A DNA stretch of 64,000 nucleotides from Suillus spraguei (Eukaryota; Basidiomycota; Agaricomycetes; Boletales; Suillaceae), in NCBI GenBank assembly GCA_016800925.1, contig JABCPU010000014.1, forward strand, positions 1-64,000, given 5' to 3'. A program made the translations under genes and the position numbers. Position 1 is the stretch's first letter. Every line of letters starts with the position of its first letter. Under the pieces are notes generated by a model that made no database searches, was not told the DNA's origin, and was given only the letters and a program-made list of their open reading frames with translations. This document shows positions 8,666 through 17,213 of the stretch, piece after piece.

Positions 8666-11600
8666 ATGAGTGACGATCAAGGTCAGTACTTACATCTCCT
8701 ATCTCACATGCTCTCTGACTTCTTTGATAGTTATTGAAGGAATTTGGGCGAAACTGTCCGAAGTTGCTGTTAGTGGTGCTCAATATAACTCTCGTGAACG
8801 TCAGCCCCACCCGAAATGTTTGGAAGGGACTCGGGTAGATCTCCTGGAATACATCCATGGATTTTTGAACAACACAGAGAAGAATCAACTCATTTGGCTG
8901 CATGGCACGGCTGGCGTCGGAAAGTCTGCCGTCGCATTTACAGTGGCTGACAAGATGAAAGATTTAAAAGTGACCAAAGACACGAACGTCGAAATGCGGC
9001 TAGCAGGGACGTTCTTTTTCTCGCGCAAGCATACCAAACGCTGCACAGCTGGATATTTCTTTGTGACGCTTGTCTACCAGCTTGCTACCAATTTTCCAAG
9101 CATCCGGAAGGATGTGAGCAGAATTATCCGCGACAAACCCGCTCTACTAGATCCAGATGGGCCTCTCAGCGACCAGATGGAAGCTTTCTTTCTTCGACCT
9201 CTCCGGCAACTACAATCAAGATTGTGCGGGTGTCCACCTTTATCGTTTGTCATCGATGCCCTTGATGAATGCACATCGGAACCCGAACTTAAAGATCTCC
9301 CTTGCACAGGCTCTTCGTGACCCCGATCTTCCCGTGACCCACATTCTACTCACGAGTCGCTCGGAATCCCATATCAGCAAAGCTTTTCAGAACGAAGAGG
9401 TGCGTTTGTTAGTGCGCGAGATCCCTGTGAGAACATCTGGGGAGGGTGGCATTATTTCGTTGGATGGCGCAGACGTTGACAATGACATCTGTACTTTCTT
9501 GCGGCATTCCTTCGGAGAGCTGGGATGTCGCCATCCTGATTTTCCTCAGCTATCGGAAGTTGACCTTACGAAGCTGGCGATCCGAGCGGGCAGACGTTTT
9601 CATCGTGGCGTCTACAATGATGAAGTTTATCATCGACGATGAAGACAGTGATCCTCGTGATCGGCTACAGCTGATGCTCAAGCTAACGAACGGGCTACTA
9701 CCAGGAACGGAGGTGTACAAGTTATATGATTGTATCCTCTCCACGTGTGCCGATCCCAAGCGGGCATACCTACACTTGTCCCTCGTTGCTGCTCTCACAG
9801 ACCCTCTTCCCATCTCGCAAATCTCTACACTTCTTGGCCCTGGTTTGGGAAGGGATGTACAGACAACACTAATACAGCTACGGTCTGTCATGGATATCCC
9901 TGCAGACAGCACTCACCCTGTGAATATCTATCACTCGTCCATTCGTGACTATGTTTCCAAGCCCTCAAACTGCGGCCTTCCTCAAGTACGCGATATCGCA
10001 TCACCTCACTCCCTACTCGCACGTTCATCTCTCCGCTTGATAATGGCGATTCCAGCAAGCACGGCTCTGTTGGACGCAATCTCAGAACTGGAAAAGCGAA
10101 GCAAAGCTATGCAACCTTCGGACTCCGATATATTGGAAGACTCCGAGTCATTGATGTTCCTTGTTCAGTCACGGCGGCCACTATCAGCCATCATATATAT
10201 GCTGTCGCTTCGAGGAGATTGTACTTCAGATTTAGAGTCTTGGCTGGGGACTGCGGATGGACATGCCTGGCTGCAGATCCAGAGAGGACGAGAGTGGCTG
10301 AAGATGCGGGGAGGACGAGATTGGCTGGAGACGCAGGGAGGTCGGGAGTGGCTGGAGACGCAGGGGGGACAAGACTGGCTGCAGACTAAAGGAGGACAAG
10401 AGTGGCTGGAAACAGTGGGAGGACGAGACTGGCTGCAGATCCAGGCAGGACCAGAGTGGCTGGAGACCCTGGGAGGACGAGACTGGCTGCAGACTGAGGG
10501 AGGACAAGACTGGCTGCAGACCGACGGAGGACGAGACTGGCTGCAGACCGACGGAGGACGAGACTGGCTGGAGACCGACGGAGGGCTGGACTGGCTGCAG
10601 GCCGACAGAGGACAAATATGGCTGGAGGCCGAGGGAGGACAAGACTGGCTGGAGAACGACAGAGGACAAGACTGGCTGCAGACCGACGGAGGACAAATGT
10701 GGCTGCAGACCGAGGGGGACAAGACTGGCTGCAGACCGAGGAAGGACAAGACTGGCTGCAGACCAAGGGAGGACGAGACTGGCTGCAGACTGAGGGAGGA
10801 CAAGACTGGCTGCAGAGTGAGGGTGGACGAGACTGGCTGCAGACCCAGCGAGGACAAGACTGGCTGCAGACCCAGGGAGGACGAGACTGGCTGCAGGCCG
10901 GGCGAGGAGATCACTGGCTGCAGGCCTGGGATGGACCAGACTGGCTGCAGACCCAGGTGATGGAAGGCATGCTGGAGTACGATGAAGGACGACACTGGCT
11001 GCGGACCCAGCGAGGACAACACTGGCTGCAGACCCAGCGAGGACGAGACTGGCTGCAGACCGAGGAAGGACAATTCTGGCTGCGGCTCTCCGATAGATCG
11101 AATGAACCAGACTGGCCGCAGGGTTGGAAAGGGCGAATGTGGCTGCAGACCGAGAGAGGACGAGACTGGCTGCAGACCGAGGGAGGACGAGACTGGCTGC
11201 AGACCCAGAGAGGACGAGATTGGCTGCAGACCCAGGGAGGACGAGACTGGCTGCAAGCCCAAGCAGGACGAGACTGGCTGCATACCCAGGCAGGACGAGA
11301 CTGGCTGCAGAACCAGGGAGGACGAGATTGGCTGCAGACCCAGGCAGGACGAAACTGGCTGCAGACCCAGGCAGGACGAAACTGGCTGCAGACCCAGGCA
11401 GGACGAGACTGGCTGCAGACCGATGGAGGACGAGACTGGCTGCAGACCGATGGAGGACGAGACTGGCTGCAGACGGAGGGAGGACGAAACTGGCTGCAGA
11501 ACCAGGGAGGACGAAACTGGCTGCAGACCGAGGCAGGACGGGACTGGCTGCAGACCCAGCGAGGACGAGACTGGCTGCAGATCCAGGCAGGACGAGACTG

Positions 11601-12919
11601 GCTGCAGGTCCAGGCAGGACAAGACTGGCTGCAGACCCAGGCAGGACGAGACTGGCTGCGGACCCAGGCAGGACAAGACTGGCTGCAGACCCTGGGAGGA
11701 CGGGACTGGCTGCAGACCGACGGAGGACGAGACTGGTTGCAAACCCAGGGAGGACGAGACTGGCTGCAGACCGACGGAGGACGGGACTGGCTGCAGACCC
11801 AGGGAAGACGAGACTGGCTGCAGACCCAGGGAGGACGAGACTGGCTGCAGACCCAAGGAGGGCGAGATTGGCTGCAGACCCAGGGAGGACGAGACTGGCT
11901 GCAGACACCCCATGGTCAAGCGTGGCAGTCCACTCCTGCAGCCTACGTCTGGGTGACAATGGAAGAATTCTCGAGGACATCGAAAGCAATCAACGAGTAT
12001 ATCATTACTAGCGATTTGCCAGCTTTTCAAGTAATTCAGTATCTCAAGACCTTACCAGACTTCTTGATGCTTCCGGTTTTCCTGGCGTTAAGAAACCGGC
12101 ATCATTCCACCTCTGCATTACCAGCAAATTTTCTTCTACCGGACAGGGAGATAATTCATGTTACGAATGCCTTTGAGAGTTTCGCCAACGAGGCACTGGA
12201 ACGCAGTCGAACAGCTTCCGACGCTCTCAAGTACGCCTGTCACAACTGGGCCGTACATCTGTCGCGTGCCCCGAAGCCATGGGATGATACACTCAACCAC
12301 ATACTCCGGGCTTTTTGGAATGATCATATTATCTCCTGGCTGGAAATGCAGTGGTGTTTGAAGGGTCTGCAGTCTTGCTTTGATATTTTATCGGAGGGGC
12401 AGAAACTTGCACAGGTGTGCCTCTTTTTAATAATTCTTGATCCACCTGCCTAACACGCTGATATTGTCTTGTTCCAGGTTTGTTTTTTTCTTGATTTTAC
12501 GTCACCCCTTGTAATTCTCATCATGCTCAGTTTGAACCTGTCAACGCGCAGCCTGATAAAGGGTCGTTAGCCATCAATCCTGATCTCCACTACTCAGGAA
12601 CGGAAGCTTCGGCACTCGTATCTGCCTCTGACTCGGAAATATCGACAAGAGGACCGTCAACTTCAGCAACTATGCTTCTCACAGAAGACCTTGTCGTTGT
12701 CTCACAAGCAAGGCTGTTACTACTTCTGGCCCATCAACCCGAACTCCTCCCTCTACTTCTTCTCTTGCACCACCCTTACCGCCCTTCCCTTCTCCGAGGC
12801 CCAACACTGCTGCGTTACTTGTTGGCACATCCCGCAAGCGCATATCGGATAGATTTCAAGTCGACAGCGATAGCCAGCTCGAATCGGACACCCCTAACCC
12901 ATCAAAACGTCGGAGATGA
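8666..12919 (+). CDS. NACHT (NLR/STAND) protein with WLQT nonapeptide repeats
   Basis: Fungal NOD-like receptor; such proteins act in non-self recognition and cell death in related fungi. A tiny first exon (MSDDQ at 8666) is followed by a linker ending PHPKCLEGTRVDLLEYI, then the NACHT NTPase: Walker A GTAGVGKS near 8910 and Walker B FVIDALDEC near 9250. Sensor-like ILLTSRSESHI follows, then the winged-helix region with YDCILSTC and YHSSIRDYV. Residues encoded at 10262-11925 are about 60 nine-residue repeats. The C-terminal region (ALKYACHNWAVHLSRAP, WLEMQWCLKGL) looks helical, and the gene ends with a proline/serine-rich tail and basic SRKR and SKRRR, TGA at 12917-12919. One-base shifts are needed near 9291, 9590, 10717 and about 12700. 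Introns split the 3' end around 12416-12530. The N-terminal effector domain is short or missing. Confidence 0.75.
10262..11925 (+). repeat. 27-bp coding minisatellite, about 60 units (G-G-R-D-W-L-Q-T-x)
   Basis: Each 27-base unit encodes nine residues with consensus GGRDWLQTQ and usually carries a CTGCAG site. W, L and G are nearly invariant. The residue three after L varies most (Q, D, E, L), and Q/T between are sometimes R, H, E, N, I, V or A. One linker near 10960-10990 (VMEGMLEYDEGRHW) spans exactly two units, so the phase of nine is kept; a second near 11085-11135 adds three residues. A one-base loss in a G run at 10714-10718 shifts the reading frame while the unit register continues. 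Units are very similar at the DNA level, which points to recent expansion or homogenisation. Confidence 0.9.
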
Positions 12920-13339
12920 ATCGAGTATCGTTTACGACGCAATATTAGTAAGAGCACAGTATGCTGTAAGTGTTTATATATAGTCCACCGCTTGTTAACA
13001 TAATGTTGCCACTAAGCACATACGACCATTTTTCAGTTGAATACAGACTTCTGTTGAGAGTTCTCGGGCTTCTTGAGTAGTAACACGTTCTAAAATCCTG
13101 TTCACACTACCTGATAAGCCTGTTCACGAGAGCGTGGCTGCACTTAGTATGATAATTGTGTATAGCATTTTCACATTTACTTTCTGTGTTAATCTATGGC
13201 ACTGTCGTAGTTTTACACAGCATATTCCAGATTCTCTCTTCAACATATCTACGGATACTATTTGCCTATCTTATGTACGGTAATTCATGTCTAGTAACAT
13301 GTAGTGACCACGTCGCCAGACCAAATAAATAATATAGAA
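12920..13339. other. Intergenic between convergent genes
   Basis: About 420 bases between the NLR stop and the DBP7 stop. AT-rich, no gene or repeat recognised. Confidence 0.5.
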
Positions 13340-15450
13340 TCAAAGAATCTCAAAGCCTTGCCGTCTGACAGCCGTGAACAAGGCAACGCCTGATGCAATC
13401 TGGAACTCGTCGGTCCCAATGCTAATCATCTTCCCGCCCTTCGACAGCCGGCCCTGTGCACGCACAATATTTTGCATTAGTCGCTCTGCGTCACCGACAT
13501 CGTGTTGCTTTGTTGGTTTAGCGGGACGCGAGCCACGACCTTTGGATGCACTGCTTGTTTAATTCTTTCCGTCAGTAATCATCTTCGGCGCTTCACGCAA
13601 GGCGAAGCGAGATGGCCGATGTGAAGGTGTTGGACATGGAAGATATGCTTCTCGTTCAAAAGATGGGTCGCATATGCCCTCATGTGCGAATTGAATGCTC
13701 TCCAAGCAATTTCGGCGTTCTGTGAAAACGTATCAACGCTCGACTTCTCTCCAAATCAAAGTTACCTCTTTGCGTCGCAAAACTCACCGCTCAAAAGAAA
13801 GTTTCACTTCCGTCGCACACGCCTCGTACTCGGAGCTTTTACCACCAAACCCCTTCGCCAACACGCTCTCGATGCTTGCGCCTTCAAGAGTGATGTTGAC
13901 TTTGACATTTCTCCCGTCACGTCGCCCCTCATCTTCCCTTCTACTGATTTCACCCATTCGGATTCGCTGGGGGCAACGATGCTCCAAGGTTCACCACCCT
14001 CGCCTGCACGTACTGTCCGTCCCACTCTGTGAACATACTCAGTCGTGCTGCCTTCGGTGGGTAGGTCGTGCTATATGACTGCGCGAACAAGGGGTATGTC
14101 GAGACCACGGAATGCCACGGACGCGCAAAGAAGAATAGAGGATGCGGGAGCAGGTTCTTAGACTTTGAAGAAGGAATAGCAGAGAAACCGCATAGAGTGG
14201 CAAGACGGAAGGGAGTGGAAGGGAACCATGAGGACGGAAGATCGAGACGCCTGGAAGGAGCGAAGATTGTGCAGTGATTTTATTCTCCTCTTCAGTGGAT
14301 TCGTCGGTCTTATCATCCTTGTCGTCACTTTTGTTTTCATTAGATTCAGAACATTCAATCTTTTCACCGTCATCGATGAATCGCCCAGCAGGCGCCAGTG
14401 AAAATCAATGGAGTCTATGCATCTGAGGAATACGATAATTTCGACCCTTGCGCCTGGAAAAGCAGTGAGCAGAGAAGTGCGACAAGATGCATCTTGAGAG
14501 AAACAATGAGAGAGTTTCTATTATGAGGGAGTGAACTTCTCGTAGTGGTAGCTCGCTCATTGTCGTATTTCGATGCAGCCGAATCCTCCGTCCTCTCTTT
14601 GTCGAGGCCCTTTATTACCAGCGGCCGCATGAGAGTGGTGCCTGCTAACTTCTGTATATCTTCACGAATGGTAGCTGAACAAAAGATCGTCTGTCTCTGT
14701 TGGTTGCAATCCCAACCCCCGACCCCGATGGTCTTACCGTCCTGAACAACTTGAAACGCGGACTTCCTCCTCCCATCCAGACCCTGTGTGATCCATTTAA
14801 AAAGCCGAGCTCCATCAAGCGGTCCGCCTCGTCGAGAACCAACCATCTGCATTTTCCAACGTTGAAAGAATATGTGTTTTGCAGATAATCTAGTAGTCGA
14901 ACTAGGGTCATGGGAATTCATGTCCTCACAAGAGAGGTTTGTGAATATAGGAAGGGAAGCATGTTGGATGGACGTTTATTTCGTGATACTCATATTAGAC
15001 TGTAGGTGAGCAACGAGGAGAGGATGAAAATTCAGGTCTGCGAACGCGGCTGAACCAGTTAATGGTGCGTTGCTTTGTTTGGAGAGTGCATTTGGACAGC
15101 GGAGCGTATAAGTGCTTCAACTTTAGGATTGTGTGAGAGGAGATGATCTGAGTCGGAGGTTTGGCTGGAACAGTCCGCTGTAGAAGCTACTTTGGTAGCA
15201 GGTAAGGGTTTGTCAGGCCGAATCCGCTTTGCAGGACGAGAGTTGTCATCATCATCGCTGCCAGGATGATGGTCAGACCTTCGTTTCTGGACTCGTTTAG
15301 CTTTCAATCTGGACTATTATAAACAGCTGTACACATGAAATCAGGATTATGCTCACCTGTCCGTCCAGCGACCAGATTTTTTTGATGCTAGTTTTGTGGA
15401 TCCTGCATAAGTATCCTCTGTGCGCGATGTTGATGTTGGCGGATCTTGAA
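13340..15450 (-). CDS. DBP7: DBP7 DEAD-box RNA helicase, heavily frameshifted
   Basis: Dbp7 is a nucleolar ATP-dependent RNA helicase of 60S ribosome assembly. Minus-strand blocks in order: [15 protein letters not shown] with KSGRWTDR (about 15445-15360), the characteristic N-terminal motif; a basic acidic linker (15307-15059); [10 protein letters not shown] and the DEAD box in [15 protein letters not shown] (about 14890-14810); [11 protein letters not shown], then FCSATIRED (motif III SAT) and [15 protein letters not shown] (about 14700-14590); [37 protein letters not shown] near 14020, the arginine-finger region; [17 protein letters not shown]; and a tail EFQIASG, with stop at 13340. The blocks lie in all three frames with repeated one-base shifts, the most damaged gene of this stretch. 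The true start is not resolved. It is divergent from ZPR1, whose ATG is less than 100 bases away. Confidence 0.75.
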
Positions 15451-15531: not shown

Positions 15532-17213
15532 ATGGCTCAAGGCGACGAACACTTCCCTCCGATCGCAGACGTTGTTGATAAAACACAGGCCGGAGATGAA
15601 GATGTCTCCACTAGACCACTCGAAGTGATCGACTCTCTTTGCATGCAATGTGAGGAGCAGGTGGGTATCCAACATTCTAATCACCGGTGGAATATTCAAA
15701 TCCGTCAGGGAGTAACACGCATGATGCTCACATCAATCCCTTTCTTCCGGGAAGTCATTGTAATGAGTTTTCGCTGCGAACATTGCGGCTACTCGAACAA
15801 TGAGATCCAGTCAGCGGGAAAGATCAGATGTGTGCAACTTGTTTTATCTCCTTACTTCTACTCCCTAACTTTGTATCTCCGGGATAGCTGAAGGCACTAT
15901 ATACACAGTTAAAGTTCTTAACCGCGGTGACCTTGACCGTCAGCTCATCCGCTCCGAAGCATGTAGTATCAACATCCCCGAGTTTGAGCTAGTTCTTCCG
16001 CCTCTCGTGGACAGCTTACAACTGTAGAGGGTCTTCTTCGGGACATTGTTGCAGATCTAAGCGTACAGCAGCCGCTCAGACGCATCCAGGATCAGAATGC
16101 CTACATCAAAATCCAGGAAATCATCGATGGTCTCAAGGAGATCATTGCCGATCATGATGACGAAGATGAAAGCAAGGACAAGCATGAGAAGAGAGAACCT
16201 TTCAACGAGGACCCAGTCACACGTGCGATAACCATCACTTTAGACGATCCTTCTGGGAATTCGTTCCTCGAGTTTGTGGGCAGCATGGCCGATCTGAAGT
16301 GGAACATGCGCACATATGAGCGGTCGTTTCAGCAGAACCAGCAACTTGGATTAGCATCTCCTACAGAAGACGCGGAAGAGAATGCAGCGGAACGGGAATC
16401 AGAGGGCCTGAATGACGAAGTATTTGAGTTCCCTGGAATCTGCTCACGTTGCGGACGACCACTTATCACACGCATGAAAAAAGTGTCTATCCCCTATTTC
16501 AAGGTCTGTATCGAAGACCCACTGAATCCACATCCCTGACAAATACATCAGGACACTCTTATAATGTCAACTAACTGCGAAAACTGCGGATATCGGGATA
16601 ACGAGATCAAGTCAGGGGCTGCAATCTCTGAACAGGGCAAGAAGATCACGTTGAAGGTTCAAGATAGAGATGACCTTAGTCGCGACATACTTAAAGTGAG
16701 TGCGTACTTCCTTTTTTAGATCTCTTGACTCAGTGGTGTCCTGTAGAGCGACACGAGTGGTCTCAGCATACCCGAGATAGACCTCGTTCTTCAACCCGGT
16801 ACACTAGGGGGACGTTTCACTACTTTAGAAGGCATCTTAGATCAGGTATACGAAGAACTCACTGAGAAAGTATTCAACGCTGGGGATTCTGGTGTCACAG
16901 ATATCGACGACAGAGCCGAGTTCCAGGAGTTCTTGAGAAAGCTTAAGCAGGTGTGTTTTTCTTTTTGTCATCTCGCGACTATCATCCTGATCTTTGCAAT
17001 CAGGTCAAGAATGCGGAGATACCATTCACCTTGATTCTAGATGACCCTCTGGCGAACTCACACGTACAGAATTTATATGCACCCGATCCAGATCCGAACA
17101 TGGAGATCGTCACATATGAACGAACGTGGCGACAGAATGAAGACCTTGGACTGAACGACATGAATGTGGAATCGTACGGTGGTGATGCGAAGGATGGTGG
17201 TACTGAAAGTTAG
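15532..17213 (+). CDS. ZPR1: ZPR1 zinc-finger protein (one apparent frameshift)
   Basis: ZPR1 is a conserved zinc-finger protein that binds translation elongation factor eEF1A and is essential in yeast. ATG at 15532. The two-module structure is visible. First zinc finger: LCMQCEEQ, an intron at 15661-15708, then [14 protein letters not shown]; an intron at 15830-15887 joins GKIRS to [18 protein letters not shown]. Second finger: [13 protein letters not shown], an intron after YFK, then [15 protein letters not shown]. Further introns follow DILK and RKLKQ. The alpha-beta segments FELVLPP and [17 protein letters not shown] flank a one-base deletion near 16003-16005, where PP must read on into RGQLTT. 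All other splice joins keep frame, and the protein ends GGTES with stop at 17211-17213. Length and architecture match the family. Confidence 0.88.

Follow-up and report, generated by a model that had tools for sequence, protein, structure and literature searches.

We analysed the first 64,000 nucleotides of contig JABCPU010000014.1 of the Suillus spraguei assembly GCA_016800925.1 (hereafter the window, read on the forward strand), in which a tandem array of nine-residue units lies within a gene of the NOD-like receptor (NLR) type. We found that the gene at this locus is damaged and belongs to a large family of NACHT-type NLRs in the Suillineae, and we consider it probable that the recognition domain of this family is a solenoid built from these nine-residue units. 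The nonapeptide repeat class is apparently undescribed so far: no description of it was found in the literature searched, with bioRxiv and most subscription journals outside the scope of that search.

The array was detected with Tandem Repeats Finder at 10267-11906 (period 27, 60.4 copies, 81% matches, score 1840), and a codon scan gave 60 units with a W-L pair, from 10241 to 11896, in steps of 27 bp except for one step of 26, one of 54 and one of 63. A preliminary description of the window had claimed about 60 tandem units of nine residues, which agrees with both methods; the consensus unit is WLQTQGGRD. Since the reverse strand of the array is also open (628 aa, 10165-12051), long open frames are weak evidence on their own. 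The coding constraint on the array is instead concluded from a codon comparison of 30 arrays with 1327 units from this genome, which were stepped by 27 bp without requiring W in each unit and compared pairwise within arrays.

In this comparison, the ratio of the proportions of nonsynonymous and synonymous differences (pN/pS) was 0.665 in the proposed frame, compared to 1.00 and 0.87 in the other two forward frames. For positions 1-9 of the unit, pN/pS was 0.10, 0.17, 0.63, 0.39, 0.76, 1.31, 0.54, 1.28 and 0.65, where the silent changes at position 1 are too rare to allow a ratio with its own pS (bootstrap 0.02-8.01). Residue conservation was 98.0% for W1, 96.4% for L2, 82.2% for T4 and 86.3% for G7. 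Thus, W, L and G, which had been described as invariant, are strongly conserved but not invariant, and T4 is nearly as marked. Bootstrapping over the 30 arrays resulted in 1.04-1.73 at position 6 and 1.10-1.51 at position 8 when the position's own pS was used, and in 1.02-1.45 and 0.90-1.26, respectively, with the overall pS. Arrays with pN/pS>1 numbered 21/30 at position 6 and 17/30 at position 8, compared to 1/30, 0/30 and 5/30 at positions 2, 4 and 7. We conclude that the scaffold of W1, L2, T4 and G7 is constrained, and that positions 6 and 8 evolve at or slightly above the neutral level. The mean identity between units is 0.740 within an array (0.774 for neighbours) versus 0.706 between arrays.

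The preliminary description had left the fold of the array open. Structure prediction with AlphaFold2 (AF2) for two proteins now gives an alpha-helical array with one short helix per unit. For the first protein, 20 helices were predicted for 20 units, with a predicted local distance difference test score (pLDDT) of 83-91 in each block of ten; the second protein has the same helix register, with a pLDDT of 82-86 over the first units. In both, each unit contains one helix of seven residues, and T4 precedes the helix. Of 2044 units, 9.4% have proline at position 5, compared to 0.0-0.9% at positions 6-9; in the 1327 units of this genome, the corresponding values are 4.7% and 0.1-1.4%. The array is thus predicted to be an alpha-solenoid with nine residues and one helix per unit. 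According to the models, a unit would form a two-turn helix (positions 5-9, 1 and 2) and a two-residue link (positions 3-4), where T or S at position 4 would cap the helix, sometimes followed by P at position 5. W1, L2 and G7 would probably face inward and make the core, and positions 6 and 8, and partly 5 and 9, would vary freely on the surface. The nearest fold group that we compared are the alpha-solenoids (ARM, HEAT, PUF, MO25, TPR, ANK). Structure searches with the array found no close fold, an absence that is no proof of novelty; a search of the Protein Data Bank (PDB) with a profile of the array found nothing.

It is possible, but in our view rather unlikely, that the array is a flexible or disordered spacer of low complexity that expanded neutrally, with its conservation due to homogenisation between units. 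Array length varies widely, from 0 to 42 strict pairs across 120 listed relatives, indels and odd units are common, many copies are broken, and the middle of one AF2 model is poorly predicted, all of which would fit a spacer. Such a spacer does not explain why W, L, T and G are constrained compared to the neutral positions 6 and 8, a pattern that is weaker or absent in the other frames, nor why three bacterial arrays (see below) keep the unit despite a high pS of 0.68-0.75 (pN/pS 0.34-0.58). Furthermore, the conserved W-L pair argues for packing.

A second possibility, which we consider very improbable, is that the array is a calcium-binding beta-roll of the RTX (repeats in toxin) type, or the decayed form of such a roll, joined to an NLR. 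RTX nonapeptides share the nine-residue period with the array and, in many units, the G-x-D-x-L spacing. The RTX family model PF00353 matches the window array at E 7.3e-44, RTX models of NCBIfam match below their cut-offs, and phmmer with a part of the array matches PDB chains, namely RTX lipases with E 7.1e-06 at best and hemolysin/CyaA with E values from 0.0011. In addition, the array half of a bacterial protein with similar units (P0142) matches plasmid proteins annotated as 'calcium-binding' with 23-24% identity. Against this, GGxGxD occurs in 0/1327 units, only 3 and 15 of which have a G at the first and second RTX position, respectively, and the G.G.D motif is found 0 times in the window array versus 18 times in an RTX control protein (P0116).

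The Pfam match itself was examined with artificial tandems of 14 units. The consensus GGRDWLQTQ scores 84.4 bits against PF00353, but the scrambled unit GGDRLWTQQ still passes with 40.3 bits (cut-off 23), whereas SGREWLQTP, which closely resembles a variant that occurs naturally in Suillus, gives no match even at E 1. A precomputed PF00353 annotation is missing from several natural members (e.g. P0003, P0013, P0018, P0022), and the bacterial proteins L045, L106 and L071 have no PF00353 match. A match to a described repeat family, which the preliminary description had named as decisive against a distinct repeat, therefore exists on paper but fails the control with scrambled and variant units, and it is best explained as an effect of spaced G and D. 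Moreover, AF2 predicts helices instead of beta structure, the protein is of the NLR type, and NLRs act in the cytosol, where calcium is low. We thus disfavour the beta-roll on the basis of the motif counts and the Pfam control. Two further groups of Pfam matches were taken as chance: Phage_186_Fil on P0142 and on the SGREWLQTP tandem (below the cut-off), and DUF2059 on L106 and Cyt-b5 on the GGRDWLQTQ tandem (each just above it).

The assignment to the NLRs is based on the domains around the array. In the window, NPHP3_N (PF24883, E 3.2e-20) and NACHT (PF05729, E 1.2e-07) match above their cut-offs, as they also do in the relatives L032, L033 and P0008, and the sequence includes what we take to be the P-loop (GTAGVGKS) and Walker B (FVIDALDE) motifs. 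The model of a full-length relative matches NRC2 and Avs3 at E <0.001 and resembles by fold the STAND ATPases (signal transduction ATPases with numerous domains). The NLR assignment of the preliminary description therefore holds for the family, although the window copy is broken. The remark that the repeat differs from WD40, ANK and TPR repeats also agrees with our searches: no match was found for five window pieces at E 0.1, nor in L032, L033 and P0008 at E 0.01, while the relative P0019 carries its array joined to WD40 repeats instead. Like the repeats of other NLRs, the array follows the nucleotide-binding module towards the C-terminus, which is the place that the preliminary description had noted for recognition domains, but it is internal, since a conserved domain of about 165 residues follows, which is helical in the AF2 models. 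The C-terminal, superstructure-forming repeats that characterise NLRs are represented here by the array and this domain, which follow the core and are predicted to be helical; the repeat class is unusual.

By analogy with fungal NLRs that carry repeats of high internal identity (PMC4986451, PMC9815663), the most likely role of the array is that of a variable surface by which the NLR recognises its ligand. The het-d and het-e genes of Podospora (PMC4986451, PMC9815663, PMC12222747) share with the Suillus family the nucleotide-binding core, near-identical tandem repeats, few variable positions per unit and length differences between alleles. The Suillus NLR differs from them in its repeat of nine residues instead of the 20-40 of WD40, ANK or TPR, in having no recognised N-terminal effector, and in the C-terminal helical domain after the array. 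Regarding the variable codons of the HNWD type, pN/pS at positions 6 and 8 exceeds 1 with the position's own pS, and at position 8 it spans 1 with the overall pS.

In a mechanism of this kind, the exchange of 27-bp units would lengthen and shorten arrays, and therefore alleles and paralogues would differ in length and in surface residues, like the arrays of other fungal NLRs whose repeats are highly identical. Ligand binding by the array of an intact copy would set the NACHT module free to exchange its nucleotide and to oligomerise. As no N-terminal effector domain was found, the output would run via a partner, or via the C-terminal helical domain and tail.

Several observations weigh against a solenoid recognition domain in this NLR. 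Of the five models for the first protein, AF2 produced a single good one (73.0, compared to 57.4 to 50.9 for the rest), the second model falls to 43-62 in the middle of the array, and AF2 may favour helical solenoids for repeats in general. The excess at positions 6 and 8 is small, and at position 8 it is not above 1 with the overall pS. The matches of the array to the RTX models of NCBIfam and to the PDB chains point in the same direction, as does the finding that both haplotypes are damaged at the window locus. Finally, no effector domain was found: Pfam gives no N-terminal domain of this kind in P0008, L033 and L032, whose first matches start at residues 47-52, 65 and 90 (for L033 and L032 numbered in stop-to-stop frames). 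It is common for fungal NLRs to have no annotated domain at the N-terminus (PMC4986451).

To describe the damage, we compared the window region (C303) to contig C460, which holds a near-identical region with 98.72% identity over 1638 aligned bases upstream of the array and 99.38% over 1444 bases downstream. From flank identity and gene order, the two regions are probably alleles. Compared to the C460 allele, the window copy (plus strand) lacks 8 bases at 9297..9298, which breaks the frame, has one T more at about 9603, and has one base fewer at about 12713, which shifts the frame in the tail. The array is furthermore not one open frame because of the 26-bp step between the units at 10700 and 10726. 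In sum, these are one 8-base loss and three one-base shifts, and the window gene is a broken NLR copy that is disrupted by them. The C460 allele has lesions of its own: a T run is shorter by one base, and stops are found within the array and at the last unit. The arrays of these presumed alleles differ in length, with 60 W-L units in the window and 28 on C460 (about 62 and about 33 unit lengths), which is an allelic difference of the HNWD type.

The lesions in both alleles raise the possibility, which we regard as quite unlikely, that the family is largely a dead duplication burst, in which most copies, including that of the window, are functionless pseudogenes. Degraded DEAD-box remnants that were co-duplicated at 20 of 35 loci, overlapping loci included, would also fit such a burst. 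The state of the family as a whole argues against it. A search of the assembly (86.2 Mb, 1256 contigs), in which 68 of 507 candidates were scored so that the counts are a lower bound, resulted in 147 matching pieces, which we grouped by eye into at least 63 separate arrays, counting both haplotypes. Open frames of at least 900 aa were found in 27 of the 63 groups, where in a few cases another part of the matching region contains a stop. They include two stop-free frames that span NACHT, array and C-terminal domain, namely L032 (1287-5873, 1528 aa) and L033 (1302-5339, 1345 aa), both measured from stop to stop, where L033 has about 45 leader residues fewer. In L034, no frame of 900 aa is among those listed, and the gene is probably cut by the end of the stretch. 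The codon constraint and the occurrence of relatives in 20 species among the matches listed likewise speak against a dead burst.

Those relatives, from outside this genome, were collected with three queries: the array with the C-terminal domain (136 matching proteins, of which 120 were listed; 7995 candidates scored), a divergent array (85 matching proteins; 7999 candidates scored) and the C-terminal domain (44 matching proteins; 246 candidates scored). The organisms named among the matches listed belong only to Suillus (18 species) or Rhizopogon (2 species), a restriction that holds for the listed matches of a word-based search that favours close repeats. Many listed relatives name no organism, and at least P0116, P0142 and P0147 are proteins of other kinds. 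With strict patterns, the P-loop was found in 60/120 and the motif of the C-terminal domain in 71/120 listed proteins, many of which are fragments; P-loop, cap and C-terminal domain occur together in 14/120.

Outside fungi, we found the unit [WF]Lx[ST]xxG[RKQ]x in few bacterial proteins, which have W/F1, L2, S/T4, G7 and R/K/Q8 in common with the fungal unit. One of them, P0142 (680 aa, on a contig of 2.7 Mb), was detected by the divergent-array search, as was the collagen-like protein P0147 with scattered units. The second half of P0142 contains 31 units by pattern (e.g. FLTSPSGRK, WLSTTAGRK), and in its N-terminal part, residues 198-313 are similar to a PD-(D/E)XK model that PADLOC groups with the defence reverse transcriptases (E 3.5e-12). 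When this first half was searched against plasmids, the matches listed were mostly from Streptomyces with 25-30% identity, and six listed rows were annotated as UvrD-helicase.

A permissive pattern search of a prokaryote genome collection gave 92 matching stretches, of which the best 45 were inspected and three kept. The remaining 42 of these 45 were other nine-residue repeats, RTX-type arrays (including L041 and L107) or short unclear frames (including L080 and L119). Two of the kept arrays follow a subtilase domain: L045 (2-3055; Peptidase_S8 E 5.2e-33) ends in 41 stepped units and L106 (4445-7114, minus strand; Peptidase_S8 E 2.4e-34) in 27, while L071 is a coding array in a Clostridiales genome. 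For L106, L045 and L071, pS between units is 0.675, 0.742 and 0.747, and the in-frame pN/pS is 0.42, 0.34 and 0.58, respectively, whereas the other frames have pN/pS >1 (for L071 from only 6 and 3 readable units). These three arrays are thus under purifying selection. The bacterial arrays, including that of P0142, resemble the fungal array in their nonapeptides but have no NACHT match; the domains to which they are joined are subtilases, PD-(D/E)XK-like or unknown.

The unit is rare in the bacteria sampled: its pattern was found in 1/398 genomes of the phylum of G001 and in 2/8 of the phylum of G002 and G003, where the positives are the starting genomes. Horizontal transfer could explain why fungi and bacteria share it, as could a minimal helix of this kind that was invented repeatedly; our data do not separate the two. 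In viral contigs, the pattern gave 14 stretches, and a frame filter showed arrays in three of the 14; L133 and L140 are unclear. The only likely coding case of the 14 is a Gly-rich protein (L129, 629-1660) with a coding run of about four nonapeptide units. Matches in relatives from the phages Edwardsiella GF-2 and Salmonella SEN22 lie on the strand opposite annotated collagen-like and lectin genes and were attributed to chance.

Taken across these hosts, we give about even credence to the broader proposal of a new repeat class: a one-helix alpha-solenoid with nine residues per unit, possibly the shortest in nature, that serves as a modular and rapidly re-lengthened recognition scaffold in fungal NLRs and is also present, via transfer or repeated invention, in bacteria, where its rare carriers are subtilases and a nuclease-like protein with similarity to a defence-associated PD-(D/E)XK model. 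If the fold is true, it would be a minimal alpha-solenoid, simple enough for design work. The proposal would also extend the recognition repeats of NLRs beyond LRR, WD40, ANK and TPR and allow tests of NLR specificity in fungi, using an ectomycorrhizal genus whose genomes each hold many copies. In practice, annotation with Pfam labels a considerable share of these fungal proteins as RTX calcium-binding, so that surveys relying on Pfam can miscount both RTX and NLR arrays. For instance, the fungal NLR P0136 is publicly named 'Ca2+-binding RTX toxin-like protein', a name that most likely arises from the PF00353 cross-match.

The layout of the window gene, which lies on the plus strand, was read from open frames, the allele comparison and relatives. 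A first coding exon (8666..8681, ATG, MSDDQ), with a similar start in the relative P0007, is probably followed by a short GT..AG intron (8682-8730). The N-terminal part and the NACHT/NPHP3_N domain extend over 8731..9296 (open frame 8670-9320), and the rest of the core, with the NACHT end, a winged-helix and helical region and the leader into the array, over 9299..10240, as judged from frames, the allele and homologous residues of P0007. After the array (10241..11922), an alignment of relatives places the C-terminal helical domain at 11923..12414 (WQSTPAA.VWVTMEEF ... YAC.NW ... EGQKLAQ). A last exon at 12531..12919, with a putative border, encodes an S/T/P-rich tail. This tail has two basic clusters, SRKR (12830-12841) and SKRRR (12902-12916), that resemble a putative bipartite nuclear signal and, as a sequence feature, suggest nuclear action; among the nine longer tails listed for relatives, both clusters are found in three (P0054, P0074, P0084) and the first only in P0005.

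Just downstream of the NLR, the window contains a degraded DEAD-box helicase-like remnant on the minus strand (13338-15313; PF00270 E 0.0042, below the cut-off, in one of four pieces). We considered whether it could be a conserved partner gene and rejected this, as the remnant is degraded and looks co-duplicated rather than functional. At 106-1129, Tandem Repeats Finder detected tandem repeats with long units, of about 150 bp and of 286-298 bp, and a piece of a ZPR1 gene, an ordinary conserved neighbour, is located at 15988-16539 (PF22794 E 1.7e-23, PF03367 E 2.9e-08).

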